From positions 1-64,000 of the forward strand of contig JAAUZU010000029.1 of NCBI GenBank assembly GCA_014804445.1: 64,000 nt of DNA, written 5' to 3'. Shown here piece after piece: positions 2,088-30,033 of the stretch (position 1 is its first letter; each line of letters begins with the position of its first letter). The notes under the pieces were generated by a model. That model was given only the letters and a program-made list of their open reading frames with translations, did no database searches and was not told the DNA's origin. This DNA comes from Lachnospiraceae bacterium. GTDB taxonomy: Bacteria; Bacillota; Clostridia; Lachnospirales; Lachnospiraceae. The translations under genes and the position numbers were made by a program.

Positions 2088-2225
2088 ATTGTACATATTG
2101 TGTATTCCATAAGCAGACCCTTGCCGGCCGTCGGTACTTAGCTGCCGTATTTTGGCAGCTTACGTACCGCTACGGCTGGCTCGGAGCGAAAGCGAGTCTG
2201 CGTTGGAATACACAATATGTACAAT
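2088..2225. repeat. Nested palindromic repeat, copy A
   Basis: The outer arms attgtacatattgtgtattcca and tggaatacacaatatgtacaat are perfect reverse complements (22 bp). Inside is a middle stem (gccggccg/cggctggc, one G-T pair), then cggtac/gtaccg, then a central hairpin (agctgcc/ggcagct). Between the outer and middle stems on one side lies a segment rich in gcgaaagcgag. It belongs to a six-copy family in this window (copies B-F); read on the minus strand it aligns with copy F. It fills the gap between the acetyltransferase and the Nudix gene. Confidence 0.85.
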
Positions 2226-14278: not shown

Positions 14279-14842
14279 ATGAGCAGAATAGCAGTATTTT
14301 TGGCGACAGGATTTGAGGAAATCGAAGGGCTTACAGTGGTGGATTTATGCCGGAGAGCGGGAATCGAAGTGGACACTGTGGCTGTCACAAAAGAGGACGG
14401 TGAGGGCGCCTGTTATGTGACCGGTTCCCACGGCATTACGGTGCGGGCGGATATGGCTTTGGACGAAGTAGACTTTGACGGGCTGGATATGATAGTACTG
14501 CCCGGTGGTATGCCGGGAACCCGCAATCTGGAGGCTTGCACACCGCTTATGGAGAAGCTGGATACCTTTTATAAGGCAGGCAAATGTATCAGTGCCATCT
14601 GTGCCGCTCCCAGCATATTCGGACACAGGGGATATCTGGAGGGCAGGAATGCCTGCGCCTATCCCGGCTTTGAAAAAGAGCTTGCCGGCGCAAAGGTAAG
14701 CGCGAGTCCGGTGGAAATTTCCGACCATATCACCACATCGAGAGGACTGGGCACAGCAATTCCCTTTGCCCTTGCCATTGTGGAACGCTTCTGCGGCAGC
14801 GACAAGGCGGAGGAACTGGCTAAGAGTGTGGTTTACAGGTGA
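14279..14842 (+). CDS. DJ-1/PfpI family protein
   Basis: 187 residues from ATG 14279, the usual DJ-1 length; the ORF-track start at 14162 would add an atypical basic leader that overlaps the promoter region of the CYTH gene. A GGAGG lies 11 bases upstream. Motifs are MSRIAVFLATGFEEIEGLT, the acidic Glu in this segment, GGMPGTRNLE, and the nucleophile elbow ISAICAAPSIFG with the reactive cysteine. Close relatives are annotated as glyoxalase III, deglycase-like or oxidative stress proteins; which of these applies cannot be told from the sequence. Confidence 0.87.
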   Translation: MSRIAVFLATGFEEIEGLTVVDLCRRAGIEVDTVAVTKEDGEGACYVTGSHGITVRADMALDEVDFDGLDMIVLPGGMPGTRNLEACTPLMEKLDTFYKAGKCISAICAAPSIFGHRGYLEGRNACAYPGFEKELAGAKVSASPVEISDHITTSRGLGTAIPFALAIVERFCGSDKAEELAKSVVYR

Positions 14843-14871
14843 TTGCGAAGTTCAGGAACTATGAGGTTGTC

Positions 14872-15025
14872 ATTGTGCACATGGGATATGCCAATACAGA
14901 CACGCTCTCGCTCCGAGCTTACTGTAGCGGTACTAAGCTCGAAAATACCTCGCAAGTCATGCGGGGCATGACTTTGGTACCGACAGTAAGCAAGGGTCCG
15001 TATTGGCATATCCCATGTGCACAAT
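14872..15025. repeat. Nested palindromic repeat, copy B
   Basis: Perfect 26-bp outer arms (attgtgcacatgggatatgc... with its exact complement). The middle stem is gcttactgt/acagtaagc, then cggtac/gtaccg, then a central hairpin aagtcatgc/gcatgactt. The segment after the left outer arm reads agacacgctctcgctccgag, shared with copies C-E. Short flanks outside the arms (gaagttca..., ...aattcgaaaccgacaaa) are shared with copy F. It fills the gap between the DJ-1 gene and the lipoprotein gene. Confidence 0.87.
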
Positions 15026-15092
15026 TCGAAACCGACAAATGTGAAGTTCGCAATTATTTGGCAGGGTAGAGAAGGAAGGGAAGAAACCTAAA

Positions 15093-15476
15093 ATGGCTGG
15101 AAGATATAAGAAATTGGTGGTCTTGTTTTTGGGCGCAATTCTGCTTTTGACGGGGTGTGCAGGCAACGGTCAGAAGGACAGCTTTACCGACAAAACCTAT
15201 TTATACGAGAAAGACGGCATTGGCGGAGATTTCACAATCCAGATTAAAAGCGATGGCACATTCTCTTATTACGAAGGATACCTAAGCAGTCATATCGGAA
15301 TGGGAGAATGGAAACAGGATGGTAGTACACTGATTCTGCTAGACAATACCATGGAGGAACATCCACTTATCAACTATTTTGAAATAGACGGAAACACTCT
15401 GATTTTTCGGGCAGAAGGTTCTGATAATTTTATCTACATCAAAGTCTCAGACGGAAAAAAATTTTTCGCAGAATAA
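15093..15476 (+). CDS. Small lipoprotein of unknown function
   Basis: 127 residues. A lipoprotein signal is clear: MAGRYKK, a hydrophobic stretch, then the lipobox LLTG-C at residue 22. The mature part is a small beta-strand-rich domain (FTIQIKSDGTFSYYEGY, GEWKQDGSTLILLD, YFEIDGNTLIFRAEG), the strand pattern of small lipocalin-like or META-type folds seen in many Clostridia lipoproteins. The function is unknown. It lies between repeat copies B and C. Confidence 0.75.
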   Translation: MAGRYKKLVVLFLGAILLLTGCAGNGQKDSFTDKTYLYEKDGIGGDFTIQIKSDGTFSYYEGYLSSHIGMGEWKQDGSTLILLDNTMEEHPLINYFEIDGNTLIFRAEGSDNFIYIKVSDGKKFFAE

Positions 15477-15534
15477 TGCAGTTATTTCAGAAGCCGTCTC
15501 ATTGGCTGTTTAGGTATTTGCTACGTTCAGCCGA

Positions 15535-15662
15535 CAGTGGAGCCCTATGCCTGTGCAGACCGTATAAAAACGTTGGCGCTTGGCGAGGTATTTTACGAGC
15601 CTAGCGTCCATTACGTTTTTATCCGAGCGAGAGCGTGTCTGCACAGGCATAGGGCTCCACTG
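15535..15662. repeat. Nested palindromic repeat, copy C
   Basis: Perfect 26-bp outer arms (cagtggagccctatgcctgt... and its complement), middle stem ataaaaacgt/acgtttttat, and a core with ggcgaggt and gagcctag. Inverted relative to copy D: on the minus strand both read gcagac-(a/g)cgctctcgctcggataaaaacg. The rest of the 387-base gap 15477-15863 is AT-rich and holds only a promoter candidate. Confidence 0.87.
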
Positions 15663-15733
15663 CCGGTGTCACTCGCCGCAAAACAATCACTAATATAATT
15701 CCAGAGAACATCAGCTCCTCTTCCATAAAACAA

Positions 15734-15762
15734 TTGACAACCTTCTTCGATTACAATAAAAT
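15734..15762 (+). promoter_or_regulatory. Promoter of the Rpn gene
   Basis: TTGACA (15734-15739), a 17-base spacer, then TAAAAT (15757-15762), about 100 bases before the ATG. Confidence 0.55.
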
Positions 15763-15863
15763 AGCATCATCTAAATCAATCTAAACTTCAAAACACTTCG
15801 GCTGTGTCAGCCTAATTTCAGTATTGCAGTCATAATCAAAAAAAATTATAATGGAGGTAGTGA

Positions 15864-16748
15864 ATGGAAAACAAAAGAGGAAAAGTAAACAGGACGTACA
15901 AAGACCGCTTATTTAAGCTGATTTTTAAGGAAAAGAAAGACTTGATGCAGCTTTATAACGCAATTAACAATACATGTTATGACAATCCTGATGAGATTGA
16001 AGTAAATACCATGGAAGATGTCGTATATATGGGAATGAAGAATGACGTCTCGTTTTTGATTAAAGATGTGTTGAACCTTTATGAACATCAGAGCACATAC
16101 AGTCCGAATTTACCGTTAAGAGGATTATTTTATTTTGCTGATTTGTATCGAAAAATGACGGAAGGTGACCGTGATATTTACAGCAGCAGGCAGATACAGC
16201 TTCCTTTTCCGCAGTTTGTCGTATTTTATAATGGTATGAAGGAAGAGCCGGAGCGGCAGATATTATATCTGCATGAGGCATTTTCAAAAAAGAACGATTG
16301 GGGCAAGGCGGCTTTAGACTGTCGTGCCATTATTTTAAATATTAATCTCGGACACAATAAGAAAATCATGCAGAAGTGCCGCAAACTGGAAGAATACGCT
16401 ATATTTATCGGAAAAATCAGAGAATACACAAATCAGAAGGTGTCGATTGAAACAGCGGTAGACAGGGCTGTGGACGAGTGTATTGAAGCCGGTATCTTAG
16501 AAGATATACTGCGAAAAAACCGTGAGGAGGTATGTTCTATGTTATTGACGGAATATAACGAGCAGCACCATATTGAGAGTGAAAGAGAGATAGCGAAAGA
16601 AGAGGGGCTGAGAGAGGGACAGGAGCAGGAGCAGCGCCGCCTGCGTACTTTGATTGCCAAAATGACGGCGGCTGGGGAGACGGACAAGTTAATCTGTCTG
16701 GCAGAGCCGGATTTTTTGCAGGATATGTTCCGGAAATATCATTTATAG
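15864..16748 (+). CDS. Rpn family recombination-promoting nuclease/putative transposase
   Basis: 294 residues. The N-terminus has the Rpn/PD-(D/E)XK family layout: YKDRLFKLIF, then NDVSFLIKDVLNLYEHQSTY (Asp plus ExQ of the nuclease core), then LPFPQFVVFYNG. The C-terminal 60 residues are a charged helix with REQ/EGLREGQEQEQRR repeats, typical for the family. In Escherichia coli, RpnA-E are DNA endonucleases that increase recA-independent recombination. GGAGG is well placed before the ATG. Clostridia often have many copies. It lies next to palindrome copy C, which may or may not matter. Confidence 0.85.
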   Translation: MENKRGKVNRTYKDRLFKLIFKEKKDLMQLYNAINNTCYDNPDEIEVNTMEDVVYMGMKNDVSFLIKDVLNLYEHQSTYSPNLPLRGLFYFADLYRKMTEGDRDIYSSRQIQLPFPQFVVFYNGMKEEPERQILYLHEAFSKKNDWGKAALDCRAIILNINLGHNKKIMQKCRKLEEYAIFIGKIREYTNQKVSIETAVDRAVDECIEAGILEDILRKNREEVCSMLLTEYNEQHHIESEREIAKEEGLREGQEQEQRRLRTLIAKMTAAGETDKLICLAEPDFLQDMFRKYHL

Positions 16749-16805
16749 GCTTTTTGTGGCGGGCGGCGCTTTTTATAAAATCACGGAGAGGATTGCAGCG
16801 GATTT

Positions 16806-17582
16806 ATGACAGGTACAGTTTCTTTTGATTACAGGCGTATAGCGGAAGGTTATGCGAAGGACAGACCGTTTCTGCATGGACAGGTGATGGAGCGGCTGAC
16901 AAAAAAGATACAAAAGCGTTATAAAAACGGCCTTGACGTGGGGTGCGGTGCCGGTTTGTCTACAAAGGCACTGCGGCAGGTCTGTGACAGGGTGACGGGC
17001 GCGGATATATCGGCGGAGATGGTGCGGGCAGCGTCTGCCCTGTATACGGAACCGGAATATTCTTTTGTGCAGGCAGGCGCAGAGGAAATTATGGCTCCGC
17101 CTGATACTTACGATATTGTGACGGCGGCGGGCGTTATCAACTGGATTGATGAAAAAAGATTTCTTCCCCAAATGGCGAGTATCATGAAAGAGGGTGGAAT
17201 CCTGCTGATATATGATTTCTGGATATCGGGCAGGATGGAGGGGAAACCTGCTTTTACAGAGTGGTATGAAAAAGAATATTTAAAGGAATTTCCAAAACCG
17301 CCCCGAAAAGAGAGGGTATGGACAAAGGAGGACACAGAAGCCTTTCAGTTTGAACTGCTCTGTCAGGAAACGTATTCCATGGACTGTGAAATGTCGCTGG
17401 AGCAGTTTGTCCGTTTTATGCTGCTGCAGTCCAATGTGATAGCACAGGTAGAGGAGAAGGGAAAGGACATTGAGGCGGTGCGGCAGTATTTTGAAGAAAG
17501 CGCATGGCCGTATTTTGCGTCCGGTATAAAAGAAAAACTGATATTTGACGGATATAGCTGGTATCTGAGATTGCAAAACTAA
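16806..17582 (+). CDS. Class I SAM-dependent methyltransferase
   Basis: 258 residues. Motif I is LDVGCGAGLSTKALRQ (about residues 40-55), the SAM-binding loop; the acidic tip of strand 2 is GADIS, and strand 4 reads YDIVTAAGVINWID. No residues specific to one substrate type are recognised, so it could act on a small molecule, a lipid quinone or a protein. The upstream site is weak (GGAGAGG about 13 bases before the ATG). It lies between the Rpn gene and the GntR operon and ends in its own transcript region. Confidence 0.8.
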   Translation: MTGTVSFDYRRIAEGYAKDRPFLHGQVMERLTKKIQKRYKNGLDVGCGAGLSTKALRQVCDRVTGADISAEMVRAASALYTEPEYSFVQAGAEEIMAPPDTYDIVTAAGVINWIDEKRFLPQMASIMKEGGILLIYDFWISGRMEGKPAFTEWYEKEYLKEFPKPPRKERVWTKEDTEAFQFELLCQETYSMDCEMSLEQFVRFMLLQSNVIAQVEEKGKDIEAVRQYFEESAWPYFASGIKEKLIFDGYSWYLRLQN

Positions 17583-17598
17583 AACATAAAATTTTCGG

Positions 17599-17627
17599 TT
17601 GACAAGTGTAGCATTAGTGTATATACT
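17599..17627 (+). promoter_or_regulatory. Promoter of the GntR/ABC operon
   Basis: TTGACA (17599-17604), a 17-base spacer, then TATACT (17622-17627): near-consensus. The stretch gtatatactgagtatgtac around the -10 has partial dyad symmetry and may be the operator of the GntR protein. Confidence 0.78.
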
Positions 17628-17663
17628 GAGTATGTACAGTAGAGAAAGCGAGAGGAGTACGGA

Positions 17664-18032
17664 ATGAGAATTCAAATTTCCATGCAAAGTGAAATTCCTA
17701 CCTACGAGCAAATCAAAAGGCAGATTAAGGCGCAGATTCTTTCGGGAGAGTTATCTGCTGACGAGCCGCTTACCTCAATACGCCAGCTTGCACGTGATTT
17801 GCAGGTAAGCATCATTACGACGACCCGCGCATATGGGGACCTGGAAGCGGAAGGTTTGATTTATATGGTGCAGGGACGGGGATGCTTTGTCAAAGGCGAT
17901 GCGGAGATAGTGCGCCGGCAGTATCTGCATGCTATTGATGAAGCGCTGCAGACTGCAGCGGACAAGGGTAAGGCGGCAGGCCTGACTCTTGGTGAATTAC
18001 AAAACAAACTGGAGGAAAAGTTTCATGGGTAA
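17664..18032 (+). CDS. GntR family regulator, YtrA type
   Basis: 122 residues: an N-terminal winged helix-turn-helix (EIPTYEQIKRQIKAQILSGE, LTSIRQLARDLQVSIITTTR, then the wing LIYMVQGRGCFVKG) and only a short helical tail. That is the YtrA subfamily layout, which lacks a large effector domain. Such regulators usually repress the ABC transporter operon that they head. The stop overlaps the start of the ATPase gene by eight bases (ATGGGTAA), so the two are translationally coupled. It likely binds near the promoter at 17599. Confidence 0.88.
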   Translation: MRIQISMQSEIPTYEQIKRQIKAQILSGELSADEPLTSIRQLARDLQVSIITTTRAYGDLEAEGLIYMVQGRGCFVKGDAEIVRRQYLHAIDEALQTAADKGKAAGLTLGELQNKLEEKFHG

Positions 18033-18873
18033 TGCAATTGAAATTCATAACTTATGTAAGGAATATCGGGGATTTGCACTGAACAATATCAGTTTTAGCG
18101 TTCCGGAAGGCTTGTGCTGCGGCTTTGTGGGTCCGAACGGCGCAGGAAAGACCACGGTGCTGAAGGCAATGGTGGGCATGATATTGAGAAGCAGCGGTGA
18201 AATTTCTCTGCTCGGTAAACCCAATGATGACCTGAATGTGAAAGAAGATATTGGAATTATGTTTGACCAGCCGTATTTTCAAGAGAACTGGACGCCGCTC
18301 GATATTGAGAGGGGCATGAAACCCTTCTATCATAATTGGGATGGCGGTGAATACAGAAAATATTTATCACGATTTGAACTTGACACTAAGAAAAAATTTA
18401 AGGATTTTTCCAGAGGCATGAAGATGAAACTGGCAATGGCAGTCCATCTTTCTCATAATGCCAGGCTTCTTTTGCTCGATGAGCCGACCGGCGGGCTTGA
18501 TCCGGCATCCCGTGATGAATTCATTGATATTATGCGGGAATATCTGGTGCAAGAAGGAAGAACAATCCTGTTTTCCACCCACATTGTCAGCGATTTGGAG
18601 CATATAGCGGACTTGGTTGCCTACATCAGTCAGGGAAGTTTATTGTTTTGCGGTGAAAAAGAGGAACTGACTACATCGTACTGCATGGTGCGGGGAGGAA
18701 AATTGCCGGAAGAAAAAAGAAAATTTGCCATTGGGCTGCGTGAGTATGATAGTGGTTATGAATGTCTTATGGAACTTGCGCATATTGGCGGTCTGCCCTT
18801 GGACACCGTTACGGAACGTGCCACCATTGATGATGTGATAGTGCACATGGAAAGGAAGAAAAAATATGCTTAA
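18025..18873 (+). CDS. ABC transporter ATP-binding protein
   Basis: 282 residues from ATG 18025, after GGAGG; the ORF-track start 17989 lies inside the GntR gene. Walker A is GPNGAGKTTVLKAMVG, the signature is FSRGMKMKLAMAVHLSHNA (a degenerate LSGGQ), Walker B is LLLLDEPTGGLDP and the switch His is in FSTHIVS. It powers the ABC-2-type permease encoded next. With a YtrA-type regulator, such pairs are often induced by cell-wall-active peptides, but the substrate is unknown here. Confidence 0.9.
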   Translation: MGNAIEIHNLCKEYRGFALNNISFSVPEGLCCGFVGPNGAGKTTVLKAMVGMILRSSGEISLLGKPNDDLNVKEDIGIMFDQPYFQENWTPLDIERGMKPFYHNWDGGEYRKYLSRFELDTKKKFKDFSRGMKMKLAMAVHLSHNARLLLLDEPTGGLDPASRDEFIDIMREYLVQEGRTILFSTHIVSDLEHIADLVAYISQGSLLFCGEKEELTTSYCMVRGGKLPEEKRKFAIGLREYDSGYECLMELAHIGGLPLDTVTERATIDDVIVHMERKKKYA

Positions 18874-19528
18874 CATGATAAAAATGGATTGGTTTGCAAT
18901 CAAATATTATCAAAAGAGGGTTTTGGTAATCTGTATTCCTCTGTTTGCCATAGGGTATATTTCCCCGGTATTACTGATGCCTACGGCAGCGTTTTTGTTT
19001 TTCCTTTTTTCTCTCGATCCCTTTGCGGTGGAGGAAAAAGGCGATTTGAACAGACTCTATTTGACCCTGCCTGTAAAAAGAAATGATATTGTTGCCGGCA
19101 GATATGCGTTATCACTTATTATAGTGTTGTGCGGCATTTTGCTTGGGCTTGTATGCATGCCTCTTGCAAATCGTATTTCACTTTCAAAATGGTATCCCGA
19201 TTTAAAATGGATTTTGGCGCTCGCTGCGTTTAGCCTGCTTTTATATGCACTGATGAATCTCTTTATGTACCCGCTGCTTTTTAAGCTGGGTTATCAAAAA
19301 GGTAAGTTTTGGGGTATGTATGTGCCGCTTGGTGTATGTACCACGGCGTATGCCGTATTTTGGACATATACCCTGCTGCCGGGCAATGAAAAACTTGTTT
19401 TTAACATGCTTGTATATGCTTCGGAACATATGCTCTTGGTCAGCGGGGGAATGTTGGTTTTGGCAGCGGCACTTTTAATAGTTTCCTACCTGCTGTCTTT
19501 AAGAATATACTTAAAACGTGAATTTTGA
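18866..19528 (+). CDS. ABC-2 type permease
   Basis: 220 residues with six hydrophobic segments, starting MIKMDWFAIKYYQKR. It resembles the short ABC-2 permeases (PF13346 type) encoded after YtrA-like regulators. The start overlaps the ATPase stop by eight bases (ATGCTTAA). The loop SLDPFAVEEKGDLNRLYLTLPVKRNDIV after the second segment is typical of this subfamily. It forms the membrane half of the exporter; the substrate is unknown. Confidence 0.85.
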   Translation: MLNMIKMDWFAIKYYQKRVLVICIPLFAIGYISPVLLMPTAAFLFFLFSLDPFAVEEKGDLNRLYLTLPVKRNDIVAGRYALSLIIVLCGILLGLVCMPLANRISLSKWYPDLKWILALAAFSLLLYALMNLFMYPLLFKLGYQKGKFWGMYVPLGVCTTAYAVFWTYTLLPGNEKLVFNMLVYASEHMLLVSGGMLVLAAALLIVSYLLSLRIYLKREF

Positions 19529-19543
19529 AAAGCAAAATGCATG

Positions 19544-19567
19544 AGAGGCACCTTTTACAAAGTGCCT
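19544..19567. terminator. Hairpin between the permease and SASP genes
   Basis: GAGGCAC, a 10-base loop, then GTGCCTC, between two convergent genes. The T-tracts are poor on both sides, so its strength is uncertain. Confidence 0.45.
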
Positions 19568-19619
19568 CCCGATGCTTTTATTGATTATAGGATTTTCTAT
19601 CCTTCCGATTCAGGAATCC

Positions 19620-19820
19620 TTATTTCATGGATTCTTCCTGCTTCTTAATCATTCTACGAACCATCTCGCCACCGATAGAACCGGCTTCCTTAGAGGTCAG
19701 GTCACCATTGTAACCCTCCTTTAAGTTTACACCAAGCTCAGAAGCAACCTCGGTCTTAAAACGGTCAAGAGCTGCCTTAGCTTCAGGAACTTCTACTCTA
19801 TTAGTTTTGTTGCTTGCCAT
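19620..19820 (-). CDS. Alpha/beta-type small acid-soluble spore protein
   Basis: 66 residues with the family signature: EAKAALDRFKTEVASELG in the middle and YNGDLTSKEAGSIGGEMVRRMI toward the C-terminus; the GPR protease cuts within the TEVASELG region on germination. These proteins coat DNA in the dormant spore and protect it from UV and chemicals. The start is preceded by GGAGGTG. The gene shows that the host sporulates, or descends from sporulating ancestors. A sigma-G promoter is expected upstream but I could not assign one with confidence. Confidence 0.93.
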   Translation of the reverse strand: MASNKTNRVEVPEAKAALDRFKTEVASELGVNLKEGYNGDLTSKEAGSIGGEMVRRMIKKQEESMK

Positions 19821-20081
19821 TCTTTTTCACCTCCAAACACTTTTGATTTTTCACAAGAACTTTGCTTGCAATCTATCTTCAAGACAAGTGGATAATAACC
19901 ACTTATCCCGGAGATTGTTGCACAGCATTTTTCGTAAAAAAGATACTGTTTTCCGCATTAAGTGTGTTGTTATCACTTATCTTGATGTTAGTATTGGCAT
20001 AGAAATAAAAAATATTATGGTAAGTTTTTCAAGAATTTTTTGGGAGGCGGGCGTGAAGAGAAGCGAGAGAAGCGAGTGACG

Positions 20082-20215
20082 CCGGGAGAGGAGCTGTATG
20101 TCTGTGCAGACGCGCTCTCGCTCGGATAAAAACGCAGCGGTACTAGGCTCGAGAGAACCTCGCCAAGTGCCGGCGTTTTTAAACGGTCTGCACAGACATA
20201 CAGCTCCTCTCCCGG
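20082..20215. repeat. Nested palindromic repeat, copy D
   Basis: Perfect 30-bp outer arms (ccgggagaggagctgtatgt... and its complement), middle stem aaaaacgc/gcgttttt, and core agcggtactaggctcgagag...acctcgccaagtgcc. The outer flank gcgagtgacgccggg is shared with copy C (minus strand) and partly with E. Confidence 0.88.
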
Positions 20216-20361
20216 CTGCAAATCGCGAAATGCGCGCTTGCAAGCGGCAAAGGTATGATTCATGCCCGCAGGGATTTGGATGTAAGCGACAAAAGACCCG
20301 CTTACGCTATGCGGCGAGTTTACAACGCCGTCACGCCTGCGTTTTCAGTGGCGGTAATCAG

Positions 20362-20494
20362 CCCGTACAGCCATCTGTTCCCGAAGGAGCCCATTAAGAA
20401 ACGTCGGCACTTGGCGAGGTTTTTTCGAGCCTAGTACCGCTACGTTTCTTTCTGAGCGAGAGCGCGGCTCCTTGGGAACAGATGGCTGTACGGG
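20362..20494. repeat. Nested palindromic repeat, copy E
   Basis: Outer arms cccgtacagccatctgttccc / gggaacagatggctgtacggg are perfect, then (after one unpaired base) aaggagcc/ggctcctt. The middle stem is agaaacgt/acgtttct. The core has cacttggcgaggtttttt and cgagcctagtaccgc; in minus orientation it matches D almost base for base outside the stems. Confidence 0.87.
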
Positions 20495-20633
20495 CGTGGC
20501 TCACCGAACAAATATGACTTGCCGAATAGATGTAACCGCCGCTTCCCCAATACATTGATTTCTGCATGTCCCCGTGCTAAAATAGTATCCGTCACCACGC
20601 ACCTGCGTGTTGACAGAAAGGTCCGGATAGACA

Positions 20634-22019
20634 ATGGAAGATACGCAGAAAATACAATTATTTGAAAAAATACCCGTTCCGCAGGCTGTCATGAAGCTGG
20701 CGGTGCCGACGATTATCAGTTCGCTTGTTATGGTGATTTATAATCTTGCGGATACTTATTTTGTGGGAATCTTAAACGACTCCGTACAAAATGCGGCGGT
20801 AACGCTGGCGGCTCCGGTGCTTCTGGCGTTTAATGCGGTAAACAATCTGTTTGGAGTTGGTTCTTCCAGTATGATGAGCCGTGCGCTGGGAAGGAAGGAT
20901 TATGATACGGTGTATCGCAGCTCGGCGTTTGGGTTTTACTGTGCCCTTGTCAGCGGCATTTTATTTTCGCTTTTTTTCACGCTGTTTCAGGTGCCGCTTC
21001 TTAAGATGCTGGGGGCGGACAGCGGGACGGTGGCTGCTACGGGAGAATATCTGAAATGGACAGTCAGCTTCGGCGCGGCGCCGGCAATTTTAAATGTAGT
21101 GATGGCGTATATGGTGCGTGCGGAAGGTGCGTCGCTCCATGCCAGTCTCGGCACCATGAGCGGGTGCCTCTTAAATATTGTGCTTGATCCCATCTTTATT
21201 CTGCCGTGGGGGCTGAATATGGGCGCAGCGGGAGCGGGGCTTGCCACCTTTTTGTCTAACTGTGTGGCCTGCGTTTACTTTTTCGTATTGCTGTTTGTAA
21301 AGAAGGGACGTACCTATGTCTGCATAAATCCTTCTAAATTTTCTTTTCAAAAAGCAATTTTGCTTGGCGTCTGCGGCGTGGGGATTCCGGCGGCAATTCA
21401 GAATCTGCTGAATGTGACAGGCATGACCGTGCTGAATAATTTTACGGCGTCATACAGTGCGGATGCGGTGGCAGCAATGGGAATTGTACAAAAAGTAAAT
21501 ATGGTACCCATGAACATTGCCATGGGATTTTCACAGGGTATTATGCCGTTGGTCAGCTATAACTATGCAAGCGGCAACAGCAAGCGCATGAAACAGACGA
21601 TTTTCTTTGCCTTAAAGCTGATTATCGGATTTTTGACAGTTATGACGCTTACGTTTTATCTGGGAGCCGGCGGGCTTACCAGAATGTTTATGAAAAATGA
21701 AGTGATTGTGGCTTACGGCACAAAATTTTTGCGGGGATTGTGTCTGGCACTGCCGTTTTTGGCAATGGATTTCCTTGCCGTCGGCGTATTTCAGGCGTGC
21801 GGCATGGGAAAGAAGGCGCTTATTTTTGCCGTGCTCAGAAAAATTGTTCTGGAGATTCCGGCGATTTATCTGTTAAATTACTTTTTCCCGCTGTATGGAC
21901 TTGCCTATGCGCAGTTCTGTGCAGAGGTGGTGCTGGCGGCGGCAGCAGTGTTGGTGCTTTTGCGGCTGTTTCAGAAAATAAATGCCGCGGCGTCTGAGAA
22001 GGAAAATTGCGGCATGTAA
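20634..22019 (+). CDS. MATE family efflux transporter (second copy)
   Basis: 461 residues, about 12 membrane helices, and the MATE opening VPQAVMKLAVPTIISSLVMV followed by YNLADTYFVGIL. The second half begins GVGIPAAIQNLLNVTGMTVL. It uses an ion gradient to export cationic or hydrophobic compounds. It differs clearly from the copy at 6368, so it is not a recent duplicate. The upstream ribosome site is weak (AAAGG). The GH3 gene starts 27 bases after its stop, so the two may share a transcript, although no functional link is obvious. Confidence 0.9.
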   Translation: MEDTQKIQLFEKIPVPQAVMKLAVPTIISSLVMVIYNLADTYFVGILNDSVQNAAVTLAAPVLLAFNAVNNLFGVGSSSMMSRALGRKDYDTVYRSSAFGFYCALVSGILFSLFFTLFQVPLLKMLGADSGTVAATGEYLKWTVSFGAAPAILNVVMAYMVRAEGASLHASLGTMSGCLLNIVLDPIFILPWGLNMGAAGAGLATFLSNCVACVYFFVLLFVKKGRTYVCINPSKFSFQKAILLGVCGVGIPAAIQNLLNVTGMTVLNNFTASYSADAVAAMGIVQKVNMVPMNIAMGFSQGIMPLVSYNYASGNSKRMKQTIFFALKLIIGFLTVMTLTFYLGAGGLTRMFMKNEVIVAYGTKFLRGLCLALPFLAMDFLAVGVFQACGMGKKALIFAVLRKIVLEIPAIYLLNYFFPLYGLAYAQFCAEVVLAAAAVLVLLRLFQKINAAASEKENCGM

Positions 22020-29877: not shown

Positions 29878-30033
29878 ATTGCGTACATTGTATATTCCAA
29901 CGCAAACGCACTTTCCCTCCAAGCCAGCCGTAGCGGTACATAAGCTGCCAGAATGCGGCGCAAGTCATGCGGGCATGACTTTGGTGCCGACGGCTGGCAA
30001 GGGTTTGCTTATGGAATATACAATGTACGCAAT
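29878..30033. repeat. Nested palindromic repeat, copy F
   Basis: Perfect 22-bp outer arms (attgcgtacattgtatattcca... and its complement), middle stem gccagccg/cggctggc, cggtac/gtgccg (one G-T pair), central hairpin aagtcatgc/gcatgactt as in copy B. The outer arms are similar to, but not the same as, those of copy A, with the changes matched on both sides. Confidence 0.87.

Follow-up and report, generated by a model that had tools for sequence, protein, structure and literature searches.

Palindromic units D and E are probably two subtypes of a dispersed hairpin-forming repeat with concertedly changing arms and exchangeable tips

The palindromic units D and E, which lie in opposite orientation between a spore protein gene and a MATE transporter gene, probably represent two variants of a single hairpin-forming repeat that is dispersed and non-autonomous, seen here in its usual inward-facing pair, and that would have spread as DNA mobilised in trans and been remodelled by the copying of arms and tips. 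The family is best read as a new REP/MITE-like family of palindromes with modular tips in gut Lachnospiraceae, and the unit is most likely a non-autonomous mobile element without host function. Coordinates given without a locus name refer to the window, which is the whole 64,000-nt stretch of Lachnospiraceae DNA that was analysed. The features of the D-E gap and its flanks are as follows.

19620-19820, minus strand: flanking gene for an alpha/beta small acid-soluble spore protein (PF00269, 7.9e-29)
20047-20056, no strand: outer flank arm, which can pair with spacer positions 20331-20340 as an extra outer helix in the full fold
20081-20111, plus strand: 5' arm of unit D (outer stem, 31 nt), 100% complementary to 20186-20216, with two two-sided changes relative to the orthologue in sister species G041
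20112-20123, plus strand: one-sided motif GCGCTCTCGCTC of unit D, near-invariant in alignments A1-A3
20136-20171, plus strand: apical module (tip) of unit D, type I here and type III in sister species G041 and G043
20186-20216, plus strand: 3' arm of unit D, assigned by complementarity to the 5' arm
20217-20360, no strand: spacer of the D-E pair, 144 nt, its sequence not conserved from pair to pair
20361-20382, minus strand: 3' arm of unit E, whose core is on the minus strand, 100% complementary to 20474-20495
20406-20441, minus strand: apical module of unit E, type I, in the GGACACT form in G043
20454-20465, minus strand: one-sided motif GCGCTCTCGCTC of unit E, assigned by alignment
20474-20495, minus strand: 5' arm of unit E, assigned by complementarity to the 3' arm
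20634-22019, plus strand: flanking gene for a MATE transporter (PF01554, 2.7e-39)

Both palindromes that the first-pass annotation had placed in this gap are real. The arms of D (20081-20216; 31 bp, 74 nt between them) and of the inverted E (20361-20495; 22 bp, 91 nt between them) are each 100% complementary, the stem of E continues for eight more pairs beyond its arms after a 1-nt bulge, and folding of either strand gives z-scores between -12.6 and -14.1, none of 200 shuffles folding equally well. The spacing between the inverted units is 144 nt and not 146, as had been stated. The cores, described as nearly identical, are inverted 82-nt copies (D, 20108-20189; E, 20388-20469) that are 85% identical and share AGCGGTACTAGGCTCGA...CCTCGCCAAGTGCC, whereas the arms, previously given as 21-30 bp, are indeed unrelated in sequence. 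Because GCGCTCTCGCTC is restricted to the 5' side of the unit, the hairpin has polarity. The spore protein and MATE genes are divergent, and the pair thus sits between two 5' ends.

Outer-helix pairings like that of D were seen by eye, uncounted, at many other copies. The D-E spacer contains a hairpin of the GCGGCG..GTAAAC..CGCCGC type, as in several E units, and in spacers adjoining E units (window 20310-20335, L009, L018, L019, L024, and L036) a small conserved hairpin, GCGGCG-NNGTAAACNC-GCCGC, was seen close inside several of these units.

In the source genome (a 3.58-Mb draft), the D-E stretch gave 130 BLAST matches, mainly in two-unit clusters, and a degenerate tip pattern had 79 exact matches, compared with none for the reversed control. 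The genome carries at least 80-90 units; our catalogue, a lower bound, holds 63 units from the window and 34 regions of this genome. Units are 130-170 nt long and consist, from 5' to 3', of a conserved TTGCRGC(A/G)AGTCACGCC, a variable arm, GCGCTCTCGCTC, an inner stem, the tip, the complementary arm, and GGCTGAAAGCNGCAAA; what is conserved is the tip with the flanking motifs. Three subfamilies were distinguished, namely D-like, E-like, and a third with arms such as ATTGTGTACATGGTATATTCCA. All 23 of the close pairs catalogued face inward, most of them consisting of a D unit and an E unit. Two inverted palindromic units thus recur as one entity, as in a REP doublet, and many single units occur as well. 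The other copies in the window are the following.

2088-2225, minus strand: copy A, third subfamily
14872-15025, plus strand: copy B, third subfamily
15531-15666, minus strand: copy C, D subfamily
29878-30033, plus strand: copy F, third subfamily

The copies show no preference among gaps between tandem, divergent, or convergent genes, and a terminator role was rejected because convergent gaps are not preferred.

At some copies, a nested palindrome, AAGTCATGC..GCATGACTTTGG, substitutes part of the tip (window ~14950-14985 in copy B, L015:3292-3446, L029:3313-3470, and L021 near 5180); the source genome has it at L015 and L029, where the G041 orthologue lacks it. Tandem partial copies of the unit's 5' half, in which the sequence breaks off in the apical loop and resumes directly at the 5' end of the following copy, were seen at L030:3183-3411, L034 near 386, and L069, and look like polymerase jumps.

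The gap was compared in two sister species, G041 (JAIDHX01, flanks ~95% identical) and G043 (MATE region 96% identical). The first-pass annotation had argued that sister strains all carrying both copies with identical arms would speak against independent insertion or rewriting; both copies are present in G041 and G043, and their arms are not identical, having been rewritten concertedly. In the D arms of G041, two pairs differ, one being AT in place of GC and the other GC in place of TA; each change is two-sided, and the stem stays perfect. The D tip reads TAGGCTCG..CCTCGCC in the source genome, whereas both sisters have GTAAGGCGCC..GCGCC or something close to it, so that the tip type differs while the arms are nearly unchanged. 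Unit D of G043 has the T-A pair of the source genome, the tip of G041, and two arm mismatches, a combination indicating that the tip did not change on the same branch as the arms. For unit E, the arms are kept in the sisters, with a single one-sided change in G041, and the tip helix is altered in G043.

Among 38 orthologous units, the tip type differs between the source genome and a sister at nine, one of which (L024) is partly deleted in the source genome; the arms are mostly 90-98% identical, and at a further locus, L036, the tip alone differs and the arms are identical. These comparisons show that the tip of the hairpin is exchanged independently of its stem. The earlier proposal of separate histories for arms and core is thereby strongly borne out, orthologous loci having changed tip type with unchanged arms.

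Another earlier proposal, that the two units inserted independently of each other and split a former gene, has next to no probability. An open frame does run into E, as had been reported (ORFs 20098-20397 and 20255-20434), but both units are present in all three species, inward-facing pairs recur, and the frames are broken in the sister species, by indels in G041 and in a spacer with a 65-nt insertion and a 21-nt deletion in G043. No protein family was matched above the cut-off, and the spacer ORF was rejected as a gene or gene fragment on the basis of these sub-cut-off Pfam matches and the frame-breaking changes in the sisters.

The arm changes are concerted, both arms of a stem changing together. 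In 26 D-type units, 96.8% of the pair cells are canonical, compared with 83.0% after shuffling and ~38% after sliding, and two-sided changes occur at 23 of the 31 outer arm pairs; the corresponding values for 14 E-type units are 96.6% and 20 of 30 arm pairs. The observed covariation scores were reached by none of 500 shuffles. The 38 orthologous units comprise 1150 arm pairs, of which 94% are Watson-Crick in each species. They contain 21 two-sided Watson-Crick replacements, whereas moving the 3' changes randomly within units gave 4.3 on average and never more than 11 over 5000 permutations. One-sided changes set a Watson-Crick pair against G.T in 30 cases, against A.C in 29, and against another mismatch in 18. 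The near equality of G.T and A.C, without strand bias, argues for DNA-level copying over selection on one RNA strand. Transversions account for 11 of the 21 two-sided changes, compared with 22% in the flanks (p=0.002), and the one-sided changes have the same transition/transversion ratio as the flanks (p=0.78); stepwise compensation via wobble predicts the opposite of both patterns. The arms diverge slightly faster than the flanks (6.0% versus 4.5%), and the two-sided changes lean toward units with swapped tips (5/9 versus 6/29, p=0.09).

The same data bear on the reading that the units are structured RNAs, or mRNA-processing or terminator elements, which are selected on one transcribed strand and whose covariation is classical compensatory evolution. 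We regard this reading as unlikely, although it would account for the strong covariation and for conserved unpaired motifs in fixed positions. In addition, at one apical pair, many copies across several species have G.T and almost none have A.C, as scored at the second pair alone, past which the table is out of register for type II tips, and this suggests some constraint on one tip strand. However, the one-sided changes in the outer arms are unbiased, mismatch-making transversions are not depleted, and the copies lie in gaps of every orientation, D and E themselves between two 5' ends. The units of a pair oppose each other, so one transcript carries one of them in antisense, and Rfam covariance models across 14700-20700 gave no plausible match at E<=5. 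It is far less probable still that the units serve, like attC, as recombination sites in folded single-stranded form, at which an integrase exchanges tips or cassettes; the variable stems, conserved unpaired motifs, and built-in strand asymmetry would fit such sites, but neither cassette exchange nor spacer inversion was seen at the orthologous pairs.

The preferred reading, DNA spread with copying of arms and tips, would work as follows. Each unit is a nested palindrome composed of variable arms, the one-sided GCGCTCTCGCTC, an inner stem, and a conserved tip, and a transposase supplied in trans would have dispersed the family in DNA form, like the MITE form in the congener G012. The single-stranded DNA would fold at replication, allowing one arm to be copied into the other by template switching, and the tip would be overwritten from another copy by conversion. 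Under these two processes, the arms would stay complementary while drifting and the tip would follow the family. L018, L029, and L034, with clustered two-sided changes and replaced or diverged tips, fit conversion, and L023, L026, and L027, with isolated two-sided changes and unchanged or nearly unchanged tips, fit template switching.

In G012, the unit lies within a 170-210 bp element with 14-bp terminal inverted repeats (TIRs; ends GTAACAGTTCAGCC/GGCTGAACTGTTAC), and the copies ending in GTAACAGTTCAGCC are flanked by 8-bp target duplications (TSDs; e.g., CGAAGATG, TCATGAGC, CGCATTTC, and AACAAGCC). IS66-like ends have 5'-GTAA and an 8-bp TSD, and the IS66-like character of the G012 ends is only a lead. 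The IS66 transposase (PF03050) was not detected in G012 (73% complete) and was rejected as the partner of these ends; no autonomous element with the same ends was found in this assembly, PF03050 being the family scanned. In the source genome, no TIRs of the G012 type are visible and unit pairs are the rule, and the Y1/RAYT transposase was rejected as the mobiliser because PF01797 had no match in this assembly (87% complete). The sole insertion/empty site shown in the source genome is L012, which has an empty counterpart in G041 and direct repeats of ~10 bp, and which may instead reflect a deletion between direct repeats in the sister. L011 was uninformative as an empty site, as L294 (G041:C26:21500-28800) has 4.8 kb of ordinary genes where the source genome has only the L011 pair.

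At L041:2830-3260, compared with L230, the source genome has lost the leading unit of a pair but retains stubs of both arms, as expected for palindrome excision during replication; the locus was therefore rejected as an insertion.

Related cores were found in several congeners, and the tip motif occurs in many Lachnospiraceae, including Butyrivibrio, Dorea, Enterocloster, Eisenbergiella, Mediterraneibacter, and others. At 135 sampled places in other Lachnospiraceae, the motif was within a large unit at 73 and alone as a mini-hairpin at 62, at least two of which (L139 and L177) look like chance. Stand-alone mini-hairpins were seen at L093, L096, L110, L102, L196, and others, some of them in tandem arrays that alternate two tip types. 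Plasmid and phage collections gave no match to the family, and viral contigs gave two (L207 and L208). Literature searches for REP or MITE elements in Lachnospiraceae, and for the letters of the motif, found nothing relevant, and the family, spread through Lachnospiraceae, appears to be undescribed so far.

The stand-alone motifs and the several interchangeable tip types would also be explained if the tip were a separately mobile mini-hairpin that enters or replaces the apex of larger hairpins, as nested mobile palindromes. We consider this improbable, since the copies fetched from the source genome included no tip standing alone, and conversion between copies accounts for the swaps without a second mover. 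A broader version, somewhat less doubtful and still tentative, is a two-level system in which a Lachnospiraceae-wide mini-hairpin (CTAGGCTCG-N5-ACCTCGCCAAG, with variants that can stand in for it) enters the apex of larger hairpin transposons as a module, by movement or by conversion, while template switching rewrites the arms of these transposons. If true, stems, tips, and transposon ends would be three layers that evolve separately.

Perfect covariation in a hairpin is normally taken as proof of a selected RNA structure. The present family, with about 80-90 copies in a genome, combines strong covariation with one-sided changes that look neutral and strand-unbiased and two-sided changes that are rich in transversions. 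It thus offers a natural way to test whether copying at the DNA level is enough to produce textbook covariation, and it is a hazard for assembly and RNA-motif discovery.

REPINs, or REP doublets, are short, dispersed, intergenic palindromes in inverted, hairpin-forming pairs with a less conserved spacer, and compensatory changes have been reported in them (Bertels & Rainey 2011, PMC3116915). The present family shares the dispersed, intergenic, inverted hairpin-forming pairs and the less conserved spacer. In contrast to the invariant REPIN ends of ~16 nt, however, each member of a pair here is a nested hairpin of 130-170 nt in which the tip is conserved and the arms vary, without short, highly conserved palindromic ends (~16-25 nt); the source genome has no Y1/RAYT match, and tips are exchanged between types. 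The G012 form resembles MITEs in its TIRs (GTAACAGTTCAGCC) and TSDs; in the source genome, TIRs of this kind are not evident and paired units are the rule. Template switching is known to maintain hairpins through multi-base two-sided stem changes without a G.U intermediate and through arm homogenisation (Monttinen & Loytynoja 2022, PMC8794818; PMC8604942). Both features are found in the units described here. The published cases concern rRNA, microRNA, and yeast coding sequence, whereas this is a multi-copy bacterial repeat, in which a sister copy is an alternative source for copying. In the attC sites of integrons, the stem sequence varies freely, unpaired features are conserved, and the strands are asymmetric. 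The units share these three properties, but their conserved part is apical and no cassette array was found. As a dispersed palindromic repeat, the family is ordinary. What makes it unusual is how large the units are, that their tips can be exchanged, and how clearly the concerted evolution of the arms can be told apart from strand-specific selection.
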